IMG/VR virus record: IMGVR_UViG_3300009154_000121
Span: 1-38,335 of that record
Length of the DNA stretch: 38,335 nucleotides
Source: a virus
Strand: one strand, 5' to 3'
Positions 3,493 through 31,113 of this stretch are shown here, piece after piece. The notes beneath the pieces are model-generated. The model ran no database searches, was not told where the DNA came from, and saw only the letters and a list, made by a program, of their open reading frames with translations. The stretch's first letter is position 1; each line of letters starts with the position of its first letter. A program made the translations under genes and the position numbers.

Positions 3493-4301
3493 TGCCTAGA
3501 GTATCTGAAATTAAAGTTCGTAGGTCTCCTAGAATTACTGCTGGAGATGTGCCAGGGTGGGAAACTGTTAACCCAATACTTGCTGTTGGCGAACTTGGTT
3601 TAAATACGGATAATAAAGACTTAAAAATTGGGGATAACTATACTGCTTGGAATAGCCTTCCAGGAATTACTGCTAAAACACTAACTACAACTTTGCCTAC
3701 GTCCCTTGGTGGAAGTGGCGGTGGAAGTACATCTTATTCTGGACCTTTGTCTATGATTTCACTAGCATCTGATTATACTTTAACTGGTGCTGGTGGTAGT
3801 GGTGCAGGGTCATTTGCTAGTACGGATACTGTACCGCTTTTTCCTAGTGGAGCCGCACTTTTAGCCAATACTGTTTATGAAATTGATGCTGATATTTTTT
3901 ATAGGCTTACTCCAAGCAATTCATCTTCACCCAGATTTTACACCTTAGCAACTAACGGACTAACTTTACAGGCGTCTGGGGCTGACCTTTTTATATTAGC
4001 TGGTAACCAAACCACCACCTCTGTTCCATCCGCTTTTGTAAAAGGTGAGCGCTGGAACACTGGGGCTAGTGCGGTAGCCCTAACAGTGACTACTGCGACT
4101 CTTCCTGGCGCATCTAACCCAGGTCTCAAGCTTACTATTAGAGGAGTAATTAGGACTAACGCTGCTGGTACATTTAACTTAGGTATATCTATTAGTACTG
4201 GTACAACCACAAACTCTAAAACTGTAGCAGGTTCTTATATGAAATTAACTAGAATTGGAGCTGTAGATAGTTCCGCGGACTCTATTGGAAGTTGGTCATA
4301 A
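3492..4301 (+). CDS. Tail fibre protein with Mtd/hyaluronidase-type N-terminal domain, paralogue C
   Basis: A 269-residue protein. The N-terminus MPRVSEIKVRRSPRITAG followed by ILAVGELGLNTDNKDLKIGD (about residues 30-49) is the small domain found at the start of many phage fibres and of the Mtd receptor-binding protein, with the pattern 'L-x-x-G-E-x-G-x-x-x-D-x-x-x-x-K-I-G-D'. A shaft-like LGGSGGGS segment follows, and then a beta-sandwich tip ending near GSYMKLTRIG. The tip is clearly related to that of the next gene, including the near-identical IRTNAAGTF strand. The start overlaps the upstream stop as TAATG. It is probably an adsorption protein. No reverse transcriptase or template repeat is visible, so the Mtd-like N-terminus does not imply a diversity-generating system. 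Confidence 0.75.
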   Translation: MPRVSEIKVRRSPRITAGDVPGWETVNPILAVGELGLNTDNKDLKIGDNYTAWNSLPGITAKTLTTTLPTSLGGSGGGSTSYSGPLSMISLASDYTLTGAGGSGAGSFASTDTVPLFPSGAALLANTVYEIDADIFYRLTPSNSSSPRFYTLATNGLTLQASGADLFILAGNQTTTSVPSAFVKGERWNTGASAVALTVTTATLPGASNPGLKLTIRGVIRTNAAGTFNLGISISTGTTTNSKTVAGSYMKLTRIGAVDSSADSIGSWS

Positions 4302-5380
4302 TGGCTAGAAATCAATTAATTCAAGTTAGACGGGACGCTGAAGCCAACTGGGTTTCTGCCCAAGCCGCTGCTCTACCTAATGCAATACTTGCTCAAGGTG
4401 AGTTTGGTTATGCTATAGACACTAAGATACTTAAAGTTGGTGACGGCTCTACTTTATGGGGAGACCTTCCTGCGGTTACTGCTGGAACCTTATCTACATC
4501 TTTGTCTACTACGCTCGGTGGTACAGGCTCTATCTATGGTGCGGCTCCAGCATTCTCATACTATACAATAAATAGTTCACCCAGCATTACTGCGGCTACA
4601 GTCACAGCCGCTACTGGTGCGTCTGGAACAGTGACATACACAGCCGCAAACAACTTCTTACCTGGTCATGTTGTAACTATTACTGGTTTAGGTACAGCCA
4701 GTGGCTCTTCCCTTAATTTATCTAGCGTTACAGTCGCAACTGCTACGTCTACCCAGTTTACTGTCAGCACTGCTACCGTAGGTGTTTCTTCTGGTAGTGG
4801 GTTAGCGACTTTACAGTCGTCAACTGCTCCTCGTCATCTGGCGTACACTTGGACTGGTGCGGCTGGAACTAATGGTTCTTTTACCACTACAGATGATGTT
4901 AAAGTGTTTGGTAAGGGTGCAGCGCTTCTTGCTAACACCGCATATGACATTGACATGCTAATTTCTTACCAGCTTACAGTTAGTGCTAACTGTACTCCTC
5001 GGCTATCTTTTACAGCCAGTAACGGATTAACCTTTCAAACTGGCGGCATTGATGTAGGTATGCTTATGTACTACTCAACATCAGCGGACACTACGCTTGT
5101 GACTAACACAAAAGCAGAGTTTTGGTTTACTGGAAATGCTCTAACTAATCAGCAGTTAACTCCTACAACTACAACTTTGACTACTACAACTCCGCTTTGG
5201 TATCTAAAAACTTGGGTTAAAGGTACAATTAGAACAAACGCTGCTGGTACTTTTACCCCTACCATAAATGTTAGCGCTGGTACATCTACAATTTCTCAGA
5301 TGCTTGACGGCTCTTACATTAAATTAACCCCTATTGGTACTGGCACATCTGCACCAACAACAATTGGAACGTGGGCATAA
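4301..5380 (+). CDS. Tail fibre protein with Mtd-like N-terminal domain and inserted beta domain, paralogue D
   Basis: A paralogue of the previous gene: the same N-terminal module (ILAQGEFGYAIDTKILKVGD, about residues 29-48) and the same tip with GTIRTNAAGTF and GSYIKLTPIG. Between shaft and tip, at about residues 97-172 (4589-4816), is an extra beta-rich domain containing FLPGHVVTITGL and STQFTVSTATVG. It is absent from the sister gene but recognisable in the 1209-aa baseplate protein at 21343-21549. The start is taken as ATG 4301 in a TAATG overlap; an in-frame TTG at 4292 lies inside the neighbour and is less likely. The likely role is receptor binding or fibre assembly. Confidence 0.75.
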   Translation: MARNQLIQVRRDAEANWVSAQAAALPNAILAQGEFGYAIDTKILKVGDGSTLWGDLPAVTAGTLSTSLSTTLGGTGSIYGAAPAFSYYTINSSPSITAATVTAATGASGTVTYTAANNFLPGHVVTITGLGTASGSSLNLSSVTVATATSTQFTVSTATVGVSSGSGLATLQSSTAPRHLAYTWTGAAGTNGSFTTTDDVKVFGKGAALLANTAYDIDMLISYQLTVSANCTPRLSFTASNGLTFQTGGIDVGMLMYYSTSADTTLVTNTKAEFWFTGNALTNQQLTPTTTTLTTTTPLWYLKTWVKGTIRTNAAGTFTPTINVSAGTSTISQMLDGSYIKLTPIGTGTSAPTTIGTWA

Positions 5381-5478: not shown

Positions 5479-6239
5479 TGTCTAGACCATACACCCCTAG
5501 TGGTCGTTTTGATACTGAGTTTGAAACAGAAGAAATCCACGACGCCATTACTAAAGACCTAACTAATCCAGTAGGTACTAATATACAGTGGTTTGTATGG
5601 AATGGCGTTACTACTGATGTTGACCCGATTTATGATGTGGGCTCAAACTACATAACCAGCACTACTGGGGTTAATAGAAATACTACTATGTCTGCGGCTG
5701 TGGGAACTACCGTGGTTACTGTGGCTTCTAATACTGGTCTAGTTGTAGGTATGGCGGCTAATGGTAACGGTATTCCAAACGGCGCTTTAATTAAATCTAT
5801 TTCTGGTACCAGCGTACGCCTTACTGCTAGGACTATTAAAACCATTACAGCAGGTACGGCAGTCAACTTTACCAATGATGGTAGGCAGTGGAAAGCCCCA
5901 GTTACCGTACCTGTTATCAAGGCTGTCTTGGGTCAAGGCTCAACTAACCTTGTACAGCAAGGTTTTTACAACGCTGACTCTATTACTTTTGTTATTGACC
6001 ACGATGTATTAACTGAGACCATTCCTGAAATGTTATACAAATTAAACCCGCTAAATGATGAGAACCCAGACCCACTTAACCGTGATAGAATTGTATGGAA
6101 GAACCAGGTTTATCGCCCGCTTCAGAATAACTATGCTGGTATTATTGCAGAGCGGTTTACTTTGCTGACATTCCAGTGCCAACAGATTATGCCAGAAGAG
6201 TTGGTCAACGACCCGCAGTTCCAAGCATACGCAAACTAG
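5478..6239 (+). CDS. Neck or head-tail connector-type virion protein with inserted Ig-like domain
   Basis: A 253-residue protein. The N- and C-terminal parts (residues 1-58 and about 133-253) look like one conserved globular virion protein, with WFVWNG, DPIYDVG, GRQWKAPVTVPVIKAV and a C-terminal Gln-rich LLTFQCQQIMPEELVNDPQF. Between DPIYDVG and GRQWKAP lies a Thr/Val-rich beta domain (about residues 60-132) containing TTVVTVASNTGLVVGM and GNGIPNGALIKSISG. This is the phage Ig-like module that appears to have been inserted. Its position between fibres and sheath and its similarity in style to neck proteins suggest a head-tail joining role. That role is inference. The start overlaps the Cys-rich gene's stop as TAATG. 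Confidence 0.6.
   Translation: MSRPYTPSGRFDTEFETEEIHDAITKDLTNPVGTNIQWFVWNGVTTDVDPIYDVGSNYITSTTGVNRNTTMSAAVGTTVVTVASNTGLVVGMAANGNGIPNGALIKSISGTSVRLTARTIKTITAGTAVNFTNDGRQWKAPVTVPVIKAVLGQGSTNLVQQGFYNADSITFVIDHDVLTETIPEMLYKLNPLNDENPDPLNRDRIVWKNQVYRPLQNNYAGIIAERFTLLTFQCQQIMPEELVNDPQFQAYAN
5655..5873 (+). other. Inserted beta-sandwich (Ig-like) domain in the neck-type protein
   Basis: This segment codes for residues 60-132 of the preceding CDS. Its pattern 'T-T-V-V-T-V-A-S-x-T-G-L-V-V-G-M ... G-I-P-x-G' differs in composition from the flanking sequence, being Thr/Val/Ala/Gly-rich. It resembles the inserts in the tail sheath (8713-9411) and in the gpJ-like baseplate protein (18536-18763). The boundaries are by eye. 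Confidence 0.55.
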
Positions 6240-6247
6240 GAGTAACT

Positions 6248-6367
6248 ATGTGTACAACATGTGGCTGTGGAGCCCCAAAAAACAAGCACGGGCAGAAAAC
6301 CCTTGCGGCGGCTAACAAAAAGTTTGCTGTTAAAAAACCTACTACAAAGAAATCAGGTAAAAAGTAA
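6248..6367 (+). CDS. Tiny Cys-cluster, Lys-rich protein 1
   Basis: A 39-residue protein: MCTTCGCGAPKNKHG followed by a basic tail with 11 lysines in total, ending KKSGKK. I chose ATG 6248 because AGGAG at 6238-6242 lies 5 bases upstream; the longer frame from 6176 overlaps the neck gene and is unlikely. Three cysteines at residues 2, 5 and 7 plus His14 could bind a metal, and the basic tail could bind DNA or RNA. It is the first of three coupled genes of similar design. Function unknown. Confidence 0.7.
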   Translation: MCTTCGCGAPKNKHGQKTLAAANKKFAVKKPTTKKSGKK

Positions 6368-6579
6368 TGTGTAAAAATTGCGGTAAAGCAAAGTGCAGTT
6401 GTAAGGCTGCTGACAAGAAGCAAGATGCCAAAACCACTAAAGGCATGACTCCTGCACAGAAGGCTAAGTTCGCCAAAGAAGATAAGAAGATGGACAAGAA
6501 GCCTATGTCTCGCAAAGAAGACGCTAAGAAAGACGCCGCTCTTGCTAAGAAAGTTGCACCTAAAAAAGGTAAGAAGTAA
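6367..6579 (+). CDS. Tiny Cys-cluster, Lys-rich protein 2
   Basis: A 70-residue protein starting MCKNCGKAKCSCKAADKK (Cys at 2, 5, 10 and 12), followed by a charged Lys/Asp/Ala helix-like tail ending KKGKK. It overlaps both neighbours by one base (TAATG). It shares its N-terminal Cys cluster and C-terminal Lys run with the previous gene, which suggests duplication. Candidate roles are DNA binding, packaging into the virion as an internal basic protein, or a metal-binding accessory factor. None is demonstrable from the sequence. Confidence 0.75.
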   Translation: MCKNCGKAKCSCKAADKKQDAKTTKGMTPAQKAKFAKEDKKMDKKPMSRKEDAKKDAALAKKVAPKKGKK

Positions 6580-6794
6580 TGGCTAAAGAAGATTACATTG
6601 CTCGTACACCTAAAGCAAGTAGCATCAAGGCTAAACCTGCCAAGGTAGAAAAAGTTATGGGCGAGTACAAAAAGGGTGAACTTCACTCAGGTAAGCCAGG
6701 TCCTGGAAAAGGTCCTGTAGTTAAGTCAAAGAAACAAGCCACGGCTATCGCTCTTTCTGAGGGTCGCAAGGCTACTAAGAAAGGTAATAAATAA
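6579..6794 (+). CDS. DUF6496-like small basic protein
   Basis: A 71-residue protein. The stretch VMGEYKKGELHSGKPGPGKG (residues 26-45) followed by PVVKSKKQATAIALSEGRKA matches my memory of the DUF6496 pattern 'V-M-x-E-x-x-x-G-x-L-x-S-G ... V-x-x-x-x-Q-A-x-A-I-A-L-S-E-A', common in phages and some bacteria and of unknown function. It begins in a TAATG overlap with the previous Lys-rich gene and ends in another with the next. It lacks the N-terminal Cys cluster of its two neighbours. Confidence 0.75.
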   Translation: MAKEDYIARTPKASSIKAKPAKVEKVMGEYKKGELHSGKPGPGKGPVVKSKKQATAIALSEGRKATKKGNK

Positions 6795-7084: not shown

Positions 7085-7101
7085 AAACTAATATTGATTT
7101 A

Positions 7102-7122
7102 GCGGGCGAAAGCCCGCTTTTT
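7102..7122 (+). terminator. Rho-independent terminator with GAAA tetraloop
   Basis: A perfect 6-bp GC stem (GCGGGC at 7102-7107, GCCCGC at 7112-7117) closed by a GAAA tetraloop is followed directly by TTTTT. It lies 17 bases after the stop of the beta-rich gene. This is the clearest intrinsic terminator in the window, and it separates the fibre and small-protein block from the tail operon. Confidence 0.9.
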
Positions 7123-7137
7123 CATTTATCCTTGTAG

Positions 7138-7187
7138 TAGTTCCATGCGGGAACTAAAGCACTACCCTTGCCGAATACCTTGCGAAT
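7138..7187 (+). promoter_or_regulatory. Regulatory gap: inverted repeat and direct repeat upstream of the tail operon
   Basis: TAGTTCC (7138-7144) and GGAACTA (7150-7156) form a perfect 7-bp inverted repeat with a 5-base loop. An imperfect direct repeat follows: CCTTGCCGAAT at 7166-7176 and CCTTGCGAAT at 7178-7187. The stretch lies between the terminator and the next ribosome site, so it may hold an operator or leader structure. No convincing -35/-10 pair is seen here. Confidence 0.4.
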
Positions 7188-7206
7188 CTCCACCAAAGGA
7201 GTTTAA

Positions 7207-7317
7207 ATGCCGAGTTCCATCTCAGAGCCGTCTATGGCTGAGTTTAAATACGGGGCTTTACATCATCAGGATGTTGGGTTTTTGGTGGGTTTGATTCTAG
7301 GATATCGGCGGGGTTAA
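7207..7317 (+). CDS. Hidden 36-residue protein with hydrophobic C-terminal segment
   Basis: A 36-codon ORF: MPSSISEPSMAEFKYGALHH, then a hydrophobic stretch DVGFLVGLILGYRRG. AAAGGAG at 7195-7201 lies 5 bases before ATG 7207, one of the best ribosome sites in the window, and the stop at 7315-7317 is followed at once by the GTG start of the next gene. The hydrophobic stretch (about residues 23-32) is short for a full membrane span. Function unknown. It would be the first gene of the operon after the terminator. Confidence 0.65.
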   Translation: MPSSISEPSMAEFKYGALHHQDVGFLVGLILGYRRG

Positions 7318-7638
7318 GTGAAAACAAGAGATATTAAAAACCTATTAAATCAAGCCATAAGTAGCGCAGCAGCCGACCTTAATACATCTTGGTCAGAGAC
7401 TGCAGCCGACCATGGATGGGATGCTAAATCCGCCAGTTCAGTTTCTGTAAAGGCTGACAATAACGGTTTAGATTTTGATTACAGCCCTGATGTGGCTCAA
7501 AAAATATTTGATAATGAGTACGGGTATAAAAACTCTAGCCCCAAACCTGCTATGCGTACGTTAGCGGCTAATAGCACGGACAGAATAGACAGCGCAATAT
7601 ATGAAGTTGTTTCTAAATGCCTTGAGGAATTTATATGA
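7318..7638 (+). CDS. Probable head-tail joining or tail-completion protein (HK97 gp10-like?)
   Basis: A 106-residue protein starting at GTG 7318, directly after the previous stop. The middle reads FDYSPDVAQKIFDNEYGYKN then PKPAMRTL, and it ends with a long helix (STDRIDSAIYEVVSKCLEEF). An 'E-x-G ... P-x-P-x-x-R' motif between beta strands and a C-terminal helix is the plan of HK97 gp10-type tail-completion proteins. The gene sits upstream of a tail-terminator candidate and the sheath, where such proteins are usual. Similarity is weak by eye. It overlaps the next gene as ATGA. Confidence 0.5.
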   Translation: MKTRDIKNLLNQAISSAAADLNTSWSETAADHGWDAKSASSVSVKADNNGLDFDYSPDVAQKIFDNEYGYKNSSPKPAMRTLAANSTDRIDSAIYEVVSKCLEEFI

Positions 7639-8261
7639 CATTCCTACTCTCTGAAGACGCAGCCCTTAAAACCTACCTTTCAGGTATTACAGTAGCAGAT
7701 GAGAAGTCTGCTAGCCGTCCTGTCAAAGTGTGGTTTGGTTACCCTGACGTTGAAATTCGTGCCCAAGACTTTCCTTTTATTACTATTGACCTTTTGAATA
7801 TTCGTCAAGCACTGTACCGACAAACATCGGGAGAATTGTACGACGGAAATTATATGGGAACCAAGGCAATTCAAACAGGAAAGTGGTACAATTATGAGGT
7901 GCCAGTAGCGTACGACTTGGTCTACCAGATTACGTCATACTCTAGGCACCCCCGCCATGACAGGGCAATACTTTATCAGTTACATGAAAAGTTTCCTGGA
8001 AGACGCGGACATCTTCCCGTAAACGATGACCTAGGAACTTCCACGGGTTATCGTCATATGTTCCTAGAGAGCATGACAAAAAATGATAGGGCAGAGGGTG
8101 AGCACGGAAACAAGCGCATCTTACGCAATATCTTTACCGTAAGTGTAGCAAGTGAGTTAACTCCGTCAATCGCTAGCGATTTGATTCCTGAAGTTATCTC
8201 AGTTGTTATTAATAAAGCCCCCCTATCTGTGTCATTTCCAAGTGACAAGACTGCTGTATAA
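7635..8261 (+). CDS. Probable tail terminator or neck protein
   Basis: A 208-residue protein upstream of the sheath. It shows PVKVWFGYPDVEIRAQDFPF then ITIDLLNI near the N-terminus, and EVPVAYDLVYQITSYSRHPR with a following long helix (DRAILYQLHEKF). The alternating beta-alpha pattern 'Y-x-L-x-Y-Q-I-x-x-x-S' followed by 'D-R-x-L-x-x-x-L' is typical of tail terminator proteins that cap the tube and contact the neck. The GAGGA at 7624-7628 precedes ATG 7635, which overlaps the previous stop. The assignment rests on pattern and on gene order (neck, terminator, sheath, tube). Confidence 0.55.
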   Translation: MTFLLSEDAALKTYLSGITVADEKSASRPVKVWFGYPDVEIRAQDFPFITIDLLNIRQALYRQTSGELYDGNYMGTKAIQTGKWYNYEVPVAYDLVYQITSYSRHPRHDRAILYQLHEKFPGRRGHLPVNDDLGTSTGYRHMFLESMTKNDRAEGEHGNKRILRNIFTVSVASELTPSIASDLIPEVISVVINKAPLSVSFPSDKTAV

Positions 8262-8280: not shown

Positions 8281-10827
8281 ATGGCTACATTCAACAAGCC
8301 AGGCGTGTACATTCAAGAAGTGTTATCGCCAAATTTGCCAGTAACTAACATTAATGGCGCATCTGTAGGTGCCTTTATTGGTATTGCAGACCGTGGACCT
8401 ACTGCCGTAGTAAGCGGAAACGTAGTAGGCGTGCCTACACTTGTCTCAAGTTGGGACGAGTTTGTTAACACCTTTAGTTTTGGTGCCGTGGCGAATGCGT
8501 TCTCCCCAGATATCTTTGGCGCTAACCCTAACCCTAACTTCTTAGGAACAGCCACTAGCGACCTAAAGAACGCCGTGTACACATTCTTTGCTAATGGTGG
8601 TGCTAATGCCTACATTGGTCGTAAGGTAAATGCTGGCGCTTCCAAAGCTAGTGTTACTGTTGCTGACAACCAAGGAGTAACTACAATTCCTCTTGGCTCT
8701 AGTCCAGAAGTTACTACTACAACTACACTGGTTTCAGCAAGCGGTGCTACCACGGTTCTAGTAGCAACAACTACAGGTATTGTTGCGGGACAACCTGTTA
8801 CGGGAACTGGTATTAACCCAATTGCTACTGTTAGCTCTATTACGTCTACTGCACTCACTGCTATTGCAACTAACAGTGCCGCTTCTGCCTCTGCGACGCT
8901 TACAATTGCCACAGCAACTGCGGCAGTTGGTCAGATGGTTACTGGTACAACCAGCATTACTGTGGGGACTTACATTACGGCAATTGGTACAGGTAACGTT
9001 ACCCTGTCAGCTACTACAGCATCTCCAATTACTAACCAACCTATTGTGTTTACAACTAATACATTGTCGCTATCTGCGTCTAATACCGCCCCTGTTACTC
9101 TTGGCTCTACTTTAGGTTTTGATAACTCTACGCTTTCTTTTAGCGTGGCTACAAATCAAATTAGTATTACTGGAACAACGTTTAGTAGCACTTTACTAAA
9201 TAACGTAGTTTCATTTTCTGGGGTTAACACAACAGACGCTACAACAAATACCGTGCTTTCTTCGGCTAACAGTTATATTGTTACCAGTGTTTTTGGTGGG
9301 GGTGTAGGAATAACTCTTGCTTACTCTGGCAGCACAGCAGGCACTCCAGTAACTCAAACCAGTGGTACTGTCACTATTACAGGAACGCCTTCTGCTAGCA
9401 CATCAGCCGCTCTAGTCATTTCGGCTAACAGCCACGGTGCTTGGGGTAACAATATCTGGGTAGGTATTACCCCTAACCAGACCCCTAACTACTTTGACCT
9501 AACGGTGTACTACGGTACGGATGCAACGATTACTGCCTCTACTGCCACATCATCTAGCCTGTCTTCAAGTAACATTGTGGAAATTATTCCTCAGTTAAGC
9601 CTTAATCCATCGGATGCACGTTTTGTAACTAATGTGGTTAACTCTAACTGGATTACGGTTAGCCTTAACGCTGGAACCGCAAGTAACCCTGCTACTCGTG
9701 TACCAGCATTTACATCTACTTGGCAGACAGCAAGTGCTAACGTTGCTGCTGGCACTAATGGAACTTTTAAGTGGTCATCTAATGGAGTTGTTACAGGAAC
9801 TACTGCAGTACGCCTTGGCGGCTATGGAGTTACGCTTACGTATACCGCTTCAAACACATCAGCTGCGGCTATTGCTACATCTAGTGCTGGTACCATATTT
9901 AGTACTACAACATCATTTGTTGCACGTACAGTAGGTGTTGCTGGAACTAGTGCTACGGGTGACCCAACCATTGCACTACAGCAGTTTGATGCGGTAGAAA
10001 ATCAGCTAATCCTCAATTACCCTAACGCTTTTGACTCTACTACTATCACTAAGATTACAGATTATGCGGCTAGTCGTGGGGATTCGTTTGCGGTAATTGA
10101 CCCAGGAACTGTGTACACTACCCCAACCGCATTGACAACGGCGTTAGATGGGTTGACTATTGCAAATCAAAATTACGGTGCAGTTTACTTCCCGAACTTA
10201 ACAATTGCAGACCCAGCGTCAACCGTGGTAGGAAAGACTATTAACGTGGCTCCTGGAGGTTCCGTAGTAGCAGAATATTCTGCTACAGATACATCTGTTG
10301 GAGCATTTAAATCTCCAGCGGGTATTACCAATAATATTGGTGGAGCCGTTCCTGTAACAACTTTGTTATCAAATGATTTTGATATAATAAGTTCCGCACT
10401 CAAGAATGTAAATATTATTAGAACCGTCCCTGGCTACGGAACCTGCATTATGGGAGCCCGTACAATTGGAAGCGCATACTCGGATAAGTATATCTCGGTT
10501 CGTCGTACACTTAACTACCTTGAGTACAACTTAAAAAACAATACCCAGTTTGCAGTGTTTGAGCCTAACGACGCAAATCTATGGAGCGACGTAGCGGCAG
10601 TAGCCAGCGGTATTTTGAATGACTACTGGTCAAAGGGCGGTCTTGCAGGAGCAACGGCTGACCAAGCGTTTTATGTTAAGTGCGATAGCACTATTAACAC
10701 GCCAACAACCATTGGGGCGGGTGAACTTCATCTTGAAGTTGGCGTAGCCCTACAGCGTCCAGCAGAATTTGTGGTTATTAAAATTGGTCAAATCAACGGC
10801 GGAACCACGGTAACCACTACTCTTTAA
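8281..10827 (+). CDS. Tail sheath protein with a large inserted beta-domain region
   Basis: The 848-residue contractile sheath subunit. The N-terminus FNKPGVYIQEV and ASVGAFIGIADRGP (residues 4-40), FANGGANAYIGR (103-114), SHGAWGNNIWVGI (384-396) and the C-terminal block (ISVRRTLNYLEYNLKN, NLWSDVAAVASGIL, AGELHLEVGVALQRPAEFVV) are classic sheath features. The C-terminal block forms the interlocking handshake between subunits. Residues about 145-377 are a Thr/Ser/Ala-rich beta region with several Ig-like units such as TTVLVATTTGIVAGQPVTGT. This makes the protein much longer than simple sheaths of about 400-500 residues; the insert probably decorates the outside of the sheath. AAGGAG at 8270-8275 lies 5 bases before ATG. 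Confidence 0.95.
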   Translation: MATFNKPGVYIQEVLSPNLPVTNINGASVGAFIGIADRGPTAVVSGNVVGVPTLVSSWDEFVNTFSFGAVANAFSPDIFGANPNPNFLGTATSDLKNAVYTFFANGGANAYIGRKVNAGASKASVTVADNQGVTTIPLGSSPEVTTTTTLVSASGATTVLVATTTGIVAGQPVTGTGINPIATVSSITSTALTAIATNSAASASATLTIATATAAVGQMVTGTTSITVGTYITAIGTGNVTLSATTASPITNQPIVFTTNTLSLSASNTAPVTLGSTLGFDNSTLSFSVATNQISITGTTFSSTLLNNVVSFSGVNTTDATTNTVLSSANSYIVTSVFGGGVGITLAYSGSTAGTPVTQTSGTVTITGTPSASTSAALVISANSHGAWGNNIWVGITPNQTPNYFDLTVYYGTDATITASTATSSSLSSSNIVEIIPQLSLNPSDARFVTNVVNSNWITVSLNAGTASNPATRVPAFTSTWQTASANVAAGTNGTFKWSSNGVVTGTTAVRLGGYGVTLTYTASNTSAAAIATSSAGTIFSTTTSFVARTVGVAGTSATGDPTIALQQFDAVENQLILNYPNAFDSTTITKITDYAASRGDSFAVIDPGTVYTTPTALTTALDGLTIANQNYGAVYFPNLTIADPASTVVGKTINVAPGGSVVAEYSATDTSVGAFKSPAGITNNIGGAVPVTTLLSNDFDIISSALKNVNIIRTVPGYGTCIMGARTIGSAYSDKYISVRRTLNYLEYNLKNNTQFAVFEPNDANLWSDVAAVASGILNDYWSKGGLAGATADQAFYVKCDSTINTPTTIGAGELHLEVGVALQRPAEFVVIKIGQINGGTTVTTTL
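8713..9411 (+). other. Inserted multi-domain beta-sandwich region in the sheath
   Basis: Codes for about residues 145-377 of the sheath. It starts after SSPEVTTTTT and ends before ALVISANSHGAWGN, where canonical sheath sequence resumes. At least two units show the 'V-x-G-Q-x-V-T-G-T' plus 'I-x-A-I-G-T-G-N-V-T-L' pattern. The composition is nearly free of charged residues, unlike the sheath core. Boundaries are by eye. Confidence 0.6.
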
Positions 10828-10840
10828 GGAGATATAGGAA

Positions 10841-11464
10841 ATGTCAGAAACAAAAAAGAATATTAATTCAATTGATACTAGAGGTACAATTGAAACAGAC
10901 CCATTACGTAACTTTAGGTTCCGTGCAAAGTTTACTCCAGTAGGTGCTAACGGAGTATTTAATAAAGCAATTACTAGTTTTAGTGGCGGGTTTTCAGGCA
11001 TCACTGGTTTACAGATAACTACCGAACCTCTTGCCTATCGTGAGGGCGGCTACAATACCACTGCCCATCAGATTCCAGGTCAGACTAGGTTTGAAAATAT
11101 TACGTTTACTCGTGGAGCGTTATTTGGAAACGATAGTGCACTTACTTGGATGCGAGGATTATTTGCAGTTACGTCTGGAGAAGGTTTACAGGTATCTGAT
11201 TCGGGTAAGTCGTCTTTCCGTTGCAATGTTACCATTGAACTTATGGACCATCCTCAAGCCAACACTGTGAACAATAAACCTCGTATGGGATTTTATATTC
11301 ATAACGCATGGATTACAAGCCTAAGGTACCAAGACTTGGACGCAGGTAGCCAAGGCGGAATTATGTACGAATCAATGACCCTTGTGCATGAAGGTCTATC
11401 AGTAGCGTTCCTTGATTACGACGGCTCAGTACATAGCGGTTCGGTAAAGCCAAAAGGATTCTAA
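10841..11464 (+). CDS. Tail tube protein (T4 gp19-like family)
   Basis: A 207-residue protein. DPLRNFRFRAKFTP (about residues 21-34), SGGFSGITGLQITTEPLAYR (48-67), EGGYNTTAHQIPGQTRFENI (68-87) and TFTRGALFGN form the hallmark of the contractile-tail tube family. Its beta-barrels stack in hexameric rings inside the sheath and carry DNA on injection. It directly follows the sheath gene, the usual order, with AAGGAG at 10826-10831. The roughly 20-residue N-terminal extension before DPLRNF is not part of the core domain. Confidence 0.9.
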   Translation: MSETKKNINSIDTRGTIETDPLRNFRFRAKFTPVGANGVFNKAITSFSGGFSGITGLQITTEPLAYREGGYNTTAHQIPGQTRFENITFTRGALFGNDSALTWMRGLFAVTSGEGLQVSDSGKSSFRCNVTIELMDHPQANTVNNKPRMGFYIHNAWITSLRYQDLDAGSQGGIMYESMTLVHEGLSVAFLDYDGSVHSGSVKPKGF

Positions 11465-31010: not shown

Positions 31011-31083
31011 GCCCCCTTAGCTCAGGGGATAGAGCAGCAGGTTTCTACCCTGCGTGGCGCTGGTTCGAATCCAGCAGGGGGTA
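31011..31083 (+). tRNA. tRNA-Arg(UCU)
   Basis: A full cloverleaf can be drawn: acceptor stem GCCCCCT with AGGGGGT (first pair a G-U wobble), D stem GCTC/GAGC, anticodon stem GCAGG/CCTGC with loop TTTCTAC (anticodon TCT), variable loop GTGGC, T stem GCTGG/CCAGC with loop TTCGAAT, and discriminator A. No CCA is encoded. It reads AGA, a codon used often in the fibre genes and likely rarer in a typical actinobacterial host. It is the only tRNA I found in the window. Confidence 0.9.
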
Positions 31084-31113
31084 CTTTAGTATGTTTTTGT
31101 CAGTACAGGTGTG

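Follow-up and report, generated by a model that had tools for sequence, protein, structure and literature searches.

The question raised by this locus is what is regulated, and what is encoded, in the short stretch that separates the head genes from the tail genes of a contractile-tail phage. The window, by which we mean the whole stretch of DNA analyzed (G000, which is the virus record of 38,335 bases), has in this gap a terminator, TTTANNNT in its T-tract, a hairpin, three TGC motifs, a hairpin over the ribosome site and a micro-ORF, in that order, with a neck-like gene and then a tail-terminator-like gene 3' of the micro-ORF (Table 1). We consider it probable, with appreciable room for doubt, that the gap combines a promoter for the tail operon, a structured 5' leader and a genuine small first cistron.

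Table 1. Features in and around the head-to-tail gap of the window, with the basis of each assignment.
Feature	Position	Strand	Basis or remark
Intrinsic terminator, stem-loop AGCGGGC-GAAA-GCCCGCT followed by a T-rich tract	7101-7118	+	Ends the upstream operon; fold and scan
Proposed -10 box TATCCT, within TTTNNTTTANNNT (7120-7132)	7127-7132	+	TTTANNNT in 50/50 distinct leaders
Predicted transcription start, A, base 1 of the hairpin	7139	+	Inferred by counting 7 on from the final T of the box
Leader hairpin, arms 7139-7144 and 7150-7155, loop ATGCG	7139-7155	+	Covariation in 7/7 pairs
Additional leader-hairpin pair	7138/7156	+	Extends the arms by 1
TGC motif 1, inside the hairpin loop	7146-7148	+	Invariant in 47/47
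TGC motif 2	7169-7171	+	Invariant in 47/47; spacing in 45/45
TGC motif 3	7181-7183	+	Nearly invariant in the alignment of 47; spacing in 45/45
Weak hairpin CTCC-ACCAAA-GGAG over the ribosome site	7188-7201	+	CTYY enrichment; centroid fold
Ribosome site AAAGGAG, 5 bases 5' of the ATG at 7207	7195-7201	+	Sequence
Micro-gene, 36 aa; apolar GFLVGLILG encoded by 7276-7302	7207-7317	+	Relatives and selection
Neck or tail-completion-like protein, 106 aa; tentatively HK97-gp10-like by fold	7318-7638	+	GTG abuts the micro-gene stop
208-aa protein, tail-terminator-like from its position alone; anchor for finding relatives	7635-8261	+	Position

The elements that an earlier note had listed for this gap are all present in the sequence, namely an inverted repeat (TAGTTCC-ATGCG-GGAACTA, 7138-7156), an imperfect direct repeat (CCTTGCCGAATA at 7166-7177 and CCTTGCGAATCT at 7178-7189), a strong ribosome site, a 36-codon ORF and a GTG start without a gap. 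The micro-ORF (7207-7317) ends in GFLVGLILGYRRG, and the GTG at 7318 immediately follows its TAA and shares its frame. A repeat search restricted to 9 nt or longer leaves out both the 7-bp inverted repeat and the imperfect direct repeat, and pairs TGCCGAATACC at 7169 with 7208. An exact 10-base direct repeat, GAGTTTAAAT, occurs at 7199-7208, where it overlaps both the ribosome site and the start codon, and again at 7240-7249 inside the micro-gene.

Relatives were collected with the 208-aa protein, whose scans gave 25 loci, and with a subsequent alignment-based scan from which the best 80 of 306 were taken. The scripted set comprises 96 entries (the window, L013-L027 and L036-L115), several of which are the same contig or identical; L003-L012 were excluded because their contigs recur among L036-L060. 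In 91 of these 96 partly redundant loci, a neck-like gene and a micro-ORF with its leader lie between head and tail genes, and the 91 positive loci correspond to 51 distinct leader-plus-start strings. Inspection by hand of L043 and L044 shows the leader and a 42-aa micro-ORF directly 5' of the 208-aa gene, with the neck-like gene undetected across the whole of the corresponding records G001 and G002 (93 kb and 62 kb, which may be fragments). The upstream sequence of L089 and L093 is too short to judge the block, while the element is absent from L027, the most distant locus at 34% identity, and present in L034 and L035, which were found via the tube protein.

A covariance model built from 17 leaders gives a single match in each of 64 of the 67 sources scanned at E up to 1, the sources including repeats of the same contig, and 61 of the 64 reach 1e-4 or better; the leader scores just 24.7 bits in L033, L039 and L040. 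No match was found among the 67 in L027, in the Streptomyces phage BRock (L116) or in L030, where the upstream part is missing. When 22 whole records are scanned, the expected site is a clear single match in 21, and in G021 it scores 24.7 bits with a second place at 20 bits. No second clear copy was seen in any of the 22 records, so the leader does not recur phage-wide in them; the weak second matches at 3840-3926 in G021 (E 0.11) and 65884-65953 in G017 (E 0.12) are possibly due to chance. A second fetch, in which the best 80 of 230 loci contained 38 new contigs, serves as a further set. The model matches 35 of the 38, with 31 of 34 in a first batch and 4 of 4 in a further one, these being all that reach far enough upstream (in L128, L189 and L197 the anchor is preceded by only about 130-460 bases). 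Each of the 35 has a GGAG site and a micro-ORF that is 38-53 codons long.

By these comparisons the element is common to many related phages from environmental samples. A DNA search of named phages did not find it, the one match being of 28 bases in a Morganella phage (E 0.07), and in BRock gene 140 starts 10 bp after gene 141 without such a gap. Queries with two distant members returned the same contigs and nothing further, and literature searches by title found no publication on this element. The earlier note had proposed that the gap is regulatory and the micro-gene real, and had held that poor conservation of the ORF and repeats would speak against this; both are kept in relatives, and the conserved order, the motifs and the covariation of the stem lend the proposal support. 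The gap thus stands above chance, since its order and motifs are conserved in relatives and the changes in its stem are compensatory.

The covarying stems that the earlier note had suggested looking for in an alignment of relatives are found in the leader hairpin. In a model-guided alignment of 50 distinct rows, 98.8% of the cells of the hairpin are paired, compared with a shuffled mean of 75.3%, and all 7 of its 7 pairs show changes on both sides, with 103 such cells against 30.2 in shuffles; sliding the partners by 1-3 columns lowers the pairing to 28-62%. As this alignment leans to the model, we added an arm-swap control and a regular-expression check. When arms are swapped among 26 distinct hairpins, pairing falls from the observed 99% to 75%, with no more than 83% reached in 2,000 shuffles; the stems are the best match around a TGC, which somewhat favors pairing, and all of the shuffle statistics are inflated by the relatedness of the sequences. 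The regular expression, which demands a stem of at least 5 pairs, finds 30 of the 31 hairpins in the first batch of the second set (22 distinct), L146 failing because of one stem mismatch.

The 26 hairpins have 15 distinct six-letter 5' arms with the pairing kept, and since the arms vary freely but jointly, the hairpin should act as RNA. A structural RNA element is thereby well supported from comparison. RNAalifold on the plain MAFFT alignment does not recover the hairpin, because gaps split its arms, and proposes 4 other pairs without covariation. In the window alone the leader hairpin is unremarkable, as 7139-7209 does not fold more stably than its shuffles (z -0.67). Rfam gives no match at gathering score in the gap, the only one at E up to 1 having 17.1 bits against a gathering score of 114 and lying on the minus strand. 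The hairpin was also considered as a second terminator, which is ruled out by the absence of a T-tract 3' of it.

The terminator upstream is itself strong, with a folding energy of -16.5 kcal/mol (z -5.24) and the GC-rich stem-loop and T-tract of an intrinsic, Rho-independent terminator; in relatives the letters of its stem vary and the stem is retained. In a plain alignment of 47 leaders, made without the use of TTTANNNT, the letters T10, T11, T12, A13 and T17 are invariant, which is the motif itself. It is found in 50 of 50 distinct leaders, with its box 5-8 bases 3' of the terminator stem, compared with 1 of 45 other terminator-like sites, where the controls include chance intragenic stems and the 48 leader-type sites of that comparison are defined by TTTA...T, so that the motif is invariant in them by construction. 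TTTANNNT matches the TANNNT -10 box, and in L061 the box reads TATAAT. Because the box lies in the T-tract of the terminator, the -35 region (positions -36 to -31) is the terminator stem.

Counting 7 from the last T, we predict a +1 that falls on a purine in 45 of 50 leaders and one base before a purine in the other 5; in the second set it is a purine in all 22 distinct leaders found by script. From this +1, the loop begins 6 bases on in 38 of the 50, 7 in 10 and 8 in 2, so that the RNA would start with a flush stem. We infer promoter activity, with a start at about 7139, from this close fit to motif and purine. From a weaker TRTANT-like box at -6 to -1 the RNA would start near the loop and lose the 5' arm, and the covariation would then have no explanation. 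In the window TTTNNTTTAYNNT occurs once, against 1.8 times expected by chance, and so does not act as a promoter motif throughout the phage; termination may be the reason why part of it is kept.

Promoters of this kind have a counterpart in actinobacteria. In Mycobacterium tuberculosis, TANNNT without a conserved -35 motif is given for 73% of primary starts, centered 7-12 bp before the start (PMC3898074). The candidate box of the gap resembles these in its distance from the predicted start and in the absence of a -35 motif, whereas it sits in the T-tract of a terminator with an invariant TT before it.

In every one of 45 distinct leaders, 19-24 bases separate TGC motifs 1 and 2, and 10-13 separate motifs 2 and 3. 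A hairpin between motifs 2 and 3, which appears in some single folds, was rejected since its flanking pairs occur in 29 of 45 leaders against 30.2 shuffled and in 11 of 45 against 12.5. The weak hairpin over the ribosome site (7188-7201) appears in the centroid fold of the window. Of the 45 leaders with GGAG, 36 have a CTYY placed 3-8 nt 5' of it that could cover the ribosome site, compared with 26 of 208 control ORFs; in the remaining GGAG leaders the complementarity to the ribosome site is shorter or none. We tentatively suggest, as an idea with a modest chance of being right, that the three UGC motifs are sites for an RNA-binding factor of phage or host that sets tail against head production post-transcriptionally. 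If true, a large group of uncultured phages, probably of actinobacteria, would have an assembly checkpoint based on the leader.

The products of the micro-gene number 44 distinct proteins in the first set; the second set has 23, at least 1 of them shared, and lengths run from 26 to 55 residues. Most have I[SD]xxS...F near the start, an apolar stretch rich in glycine or alanine and a basic end. The start motif is absent from L036 and L193, and the L036 protein is 10 residues shorter than that of the window, mainly near its start, with the C-terminal part kept. The last 12 residues are net positive in 49 of 49 micro-genes examined, in an analysis of basic end and upstream box that was likewise anchored on TTTA...T and in which the invariance of that motif is by construction. 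For 16 disjoint pairs pN/pS is 0.35 (pS 0.201, pN 0.070), the pairs being restricted to at least 55% protein identity, which lowers pN; exceptions are L086/L088, where pN exceeds pS, and L048/L051, which differ by one replacement. Purifying selection, and with it a genuine small gene, is well supported by these substitution patterns.

The micro-protein of the window has no Pfam or PHROGs match, and 32 members gave 7 isolated weak family matches, each in a single member (best E 0.007). AlphaFold2 predicts one helix over residues 10-35 at a modest pLDDT of 70.5. The earlier note had offered a small membrane protein as one of its two readings, and this is possible; the apolar stretch is short and glycine-rich, with a best 15-residue mean hydropathy of 1.23. 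A reading in which one gene is split by the in-frame TAA at 7315 was discarded, as a joint query with the stop as X found 0 relatives and the relatives show two separate, often overlapping ORFs. An upstream ORF that starts in the hairpin loop (7145-7294, 49 aa) was also set aside, its frame not being kept in relatives. The comparison adds a family of phage proteins of 26-55 residues. Proteins of this size are often missed by gene callers.

The 106-aa protein that follows is modeled with confidence (pLDDT 92). In VIA-align the top row, PDB 9mu2_P, a neck tail completion protein from SaPI1, aligns over 94 residues at an rmsd of 2.6; its Z of 8.1 falls within the range of common arrangements, and the identity is only 10%. 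The strongest BFVD rows are uncharacterized phage proteins, with weak rows for HK97 gp10 or a tail component; Foldseek against the PDB gave 0 matches at E 0.001, profile searches of PDB sequences gave nothing convincing, and the window protein has no PHROGs match. Since its predicted fold and its position are alike those of the SaPI1 protein and the HK97-gp10 family, it is probably a neck or tail completion protein.

Other accounts of the gap have to be weighed against the one we prefer. The tail genes might be reached by read-through of a leaky terminator in the absence of any promoter, with the second hairpin serving in a long mRNA as an element for processing or stability by which the ratio of head to tail is set. 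A terminator that is strong and conserved would fit, as would a sigma-70 consensus scan of the window that finds no promoter on the + strand in the gap, and the T-tract could account for part of the conserved T letters. It is harder to see why read-through would leave TTTA...T without variation in the plain alignment of 47, place it 6-8 nt 5' of the stem and put a purine at +1 in 45 of the 50 leaders, and why TTTANNNT would be found at just 1 of the 45 other terminator-like sites, and we regard this account as rather unlikely. The palindrome and the TGC repeats might instead be DNA sites for a transcription factor at the promoter, which would agree with a single site at the head of an operon and with TGC spacings of 19-24 and 10-13 nt, close to two helical turns and to one. 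A DNA operator would be expected to keep its letters, and the free changes in the hairpin arms, where the letters vary widely with pairing kept, argue against one, as do the drifting spacings; this seems to us improbable.

The other reading of the earlier note was a leader peptide that controls the operon. Attenuation of this kind, by the micro-ORF or by an ORF that begins in the hairpin loop, is suggested by a micro-ORF that comes first, has a strong ribosome site and is close to the next start, and by a hairpin loop that reads NTG. The evidence runs the other way at several points: the micro-protein is under purifying selection, its length spans 26-55 codons, the fold of the ORF region in the window is ordinary (z -0.29), and the micro-ORF persists in the two contigs where the next gene is undetected. 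As the spacings between TGC motifs 1 and 2 take all values from 19 to 24, no frame from the loop is kept. The window also has no terminator-like site between 7207 and 7318. The leader-peptide proposal is thus very hard to maintain, and the first cistron is most likely a small helical protein.

Our preferred reading of promoter, leader and small cistron draws on what comparison among relatives demonstrates, namely the conserved order, RNA-like covariation, the invariance of TTTANNNT and of the TGC motifs, and a micro-protein under selection. The head operon would end at the terminator at 7101-7118 and the tail operon would begin within the gap, where a -10-only (TANNNT) promoter in the T-tract would start transcription at about A7139, so that the tail mRNA would begin flush with the hairpin AGUUCC-AUGCG-GGAACU. 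Such a 5' hairpin should protect the end of the mRNA against decay and would present the UGC of its loop. The two further UGC motifs of the 68-nt leader, where they may be recognized, and its weak ribosome-site hairpin would fit a tuning of translation by some factor, and the micro-protein would be translated beside or overlapping the neck-like gene and may have a role in virion assembly.

The stem-loop at the 5' terminus of ompA is the classic case of an mRNA-stabilizing structure. Stabilizing stem-loops of the 5' UTR, as reviewed in PMC7509114, likewise lie in the leader; here the stem-loop is predicted to be flush with the 5' end, and conserved UGC motifs and a weak ribosome-site hairpin are extra. 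The SAS and ESAS elements of Cluster K mycobacteriophages are also similar in that an inverted repeat and then a ribosome-site region precede the starts (PMC3203893). In that paper, SAS is a fixed 13-mer with 11-19 copies per genome, ESAS repeats have a consensus, and the function is given as unknown, in contrast to the one clear copy per record with variable arms found here. The SAS 13-mer GGGATAGGAGCCC has 2 matches in the window at up to 3 mismatches against 4.9 expected, and none in the gap.

For the uncultured phages of this group, the control of late genes can be tested solely by way of their sequences. A covarying block of some 90 bases, fixed in place and with invariant motifs, provides a testable model for three questions, namely where the tail mRNA starts, whether it gains protection from the hairpin and what recognizes the UGC motifs. 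As to the host, queries with the tube and the 208-aa protein find Streptomyces phages as the named records, at 30-38% amino-acid identity. An actinobacterial host for the window phage is likely since these nearest named phages infect Streptomyces, with this weak protein similarity as its one basis, and a genome-contig scan for the host returned 0 relatives.

Elsewhere in the window, PHROGs profiles assign the tail sheath (8281-10827) and the tube (10841-11464), and Pfam finds a baseplate hub, baseplate J, DNA polymerase A, RecA and a SNF2-type helicase. The sheath is 848 aa long and contains a long stretch rich in S, T and A; the match to the sheath profile phrog_23 (positions 20-458 of 496) is spread across residues 1-833. 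The sole tRNA gene detected, for tRNA-Arg (TCT), is at 31011-31084. Three small lysine-rich ORFs lie 5' of the last head-operon gene (6176-6794), two of them with cysteine pairs (CTTCGC; CKNCGKAKCSC), and in several related loci lysine-rich ORFs stop just 5' of the terminator. Finally, the protein encoded at 4292-5380 has an Mtd_N domain (major tropism determinant N-terminal, E 9.3e-11).
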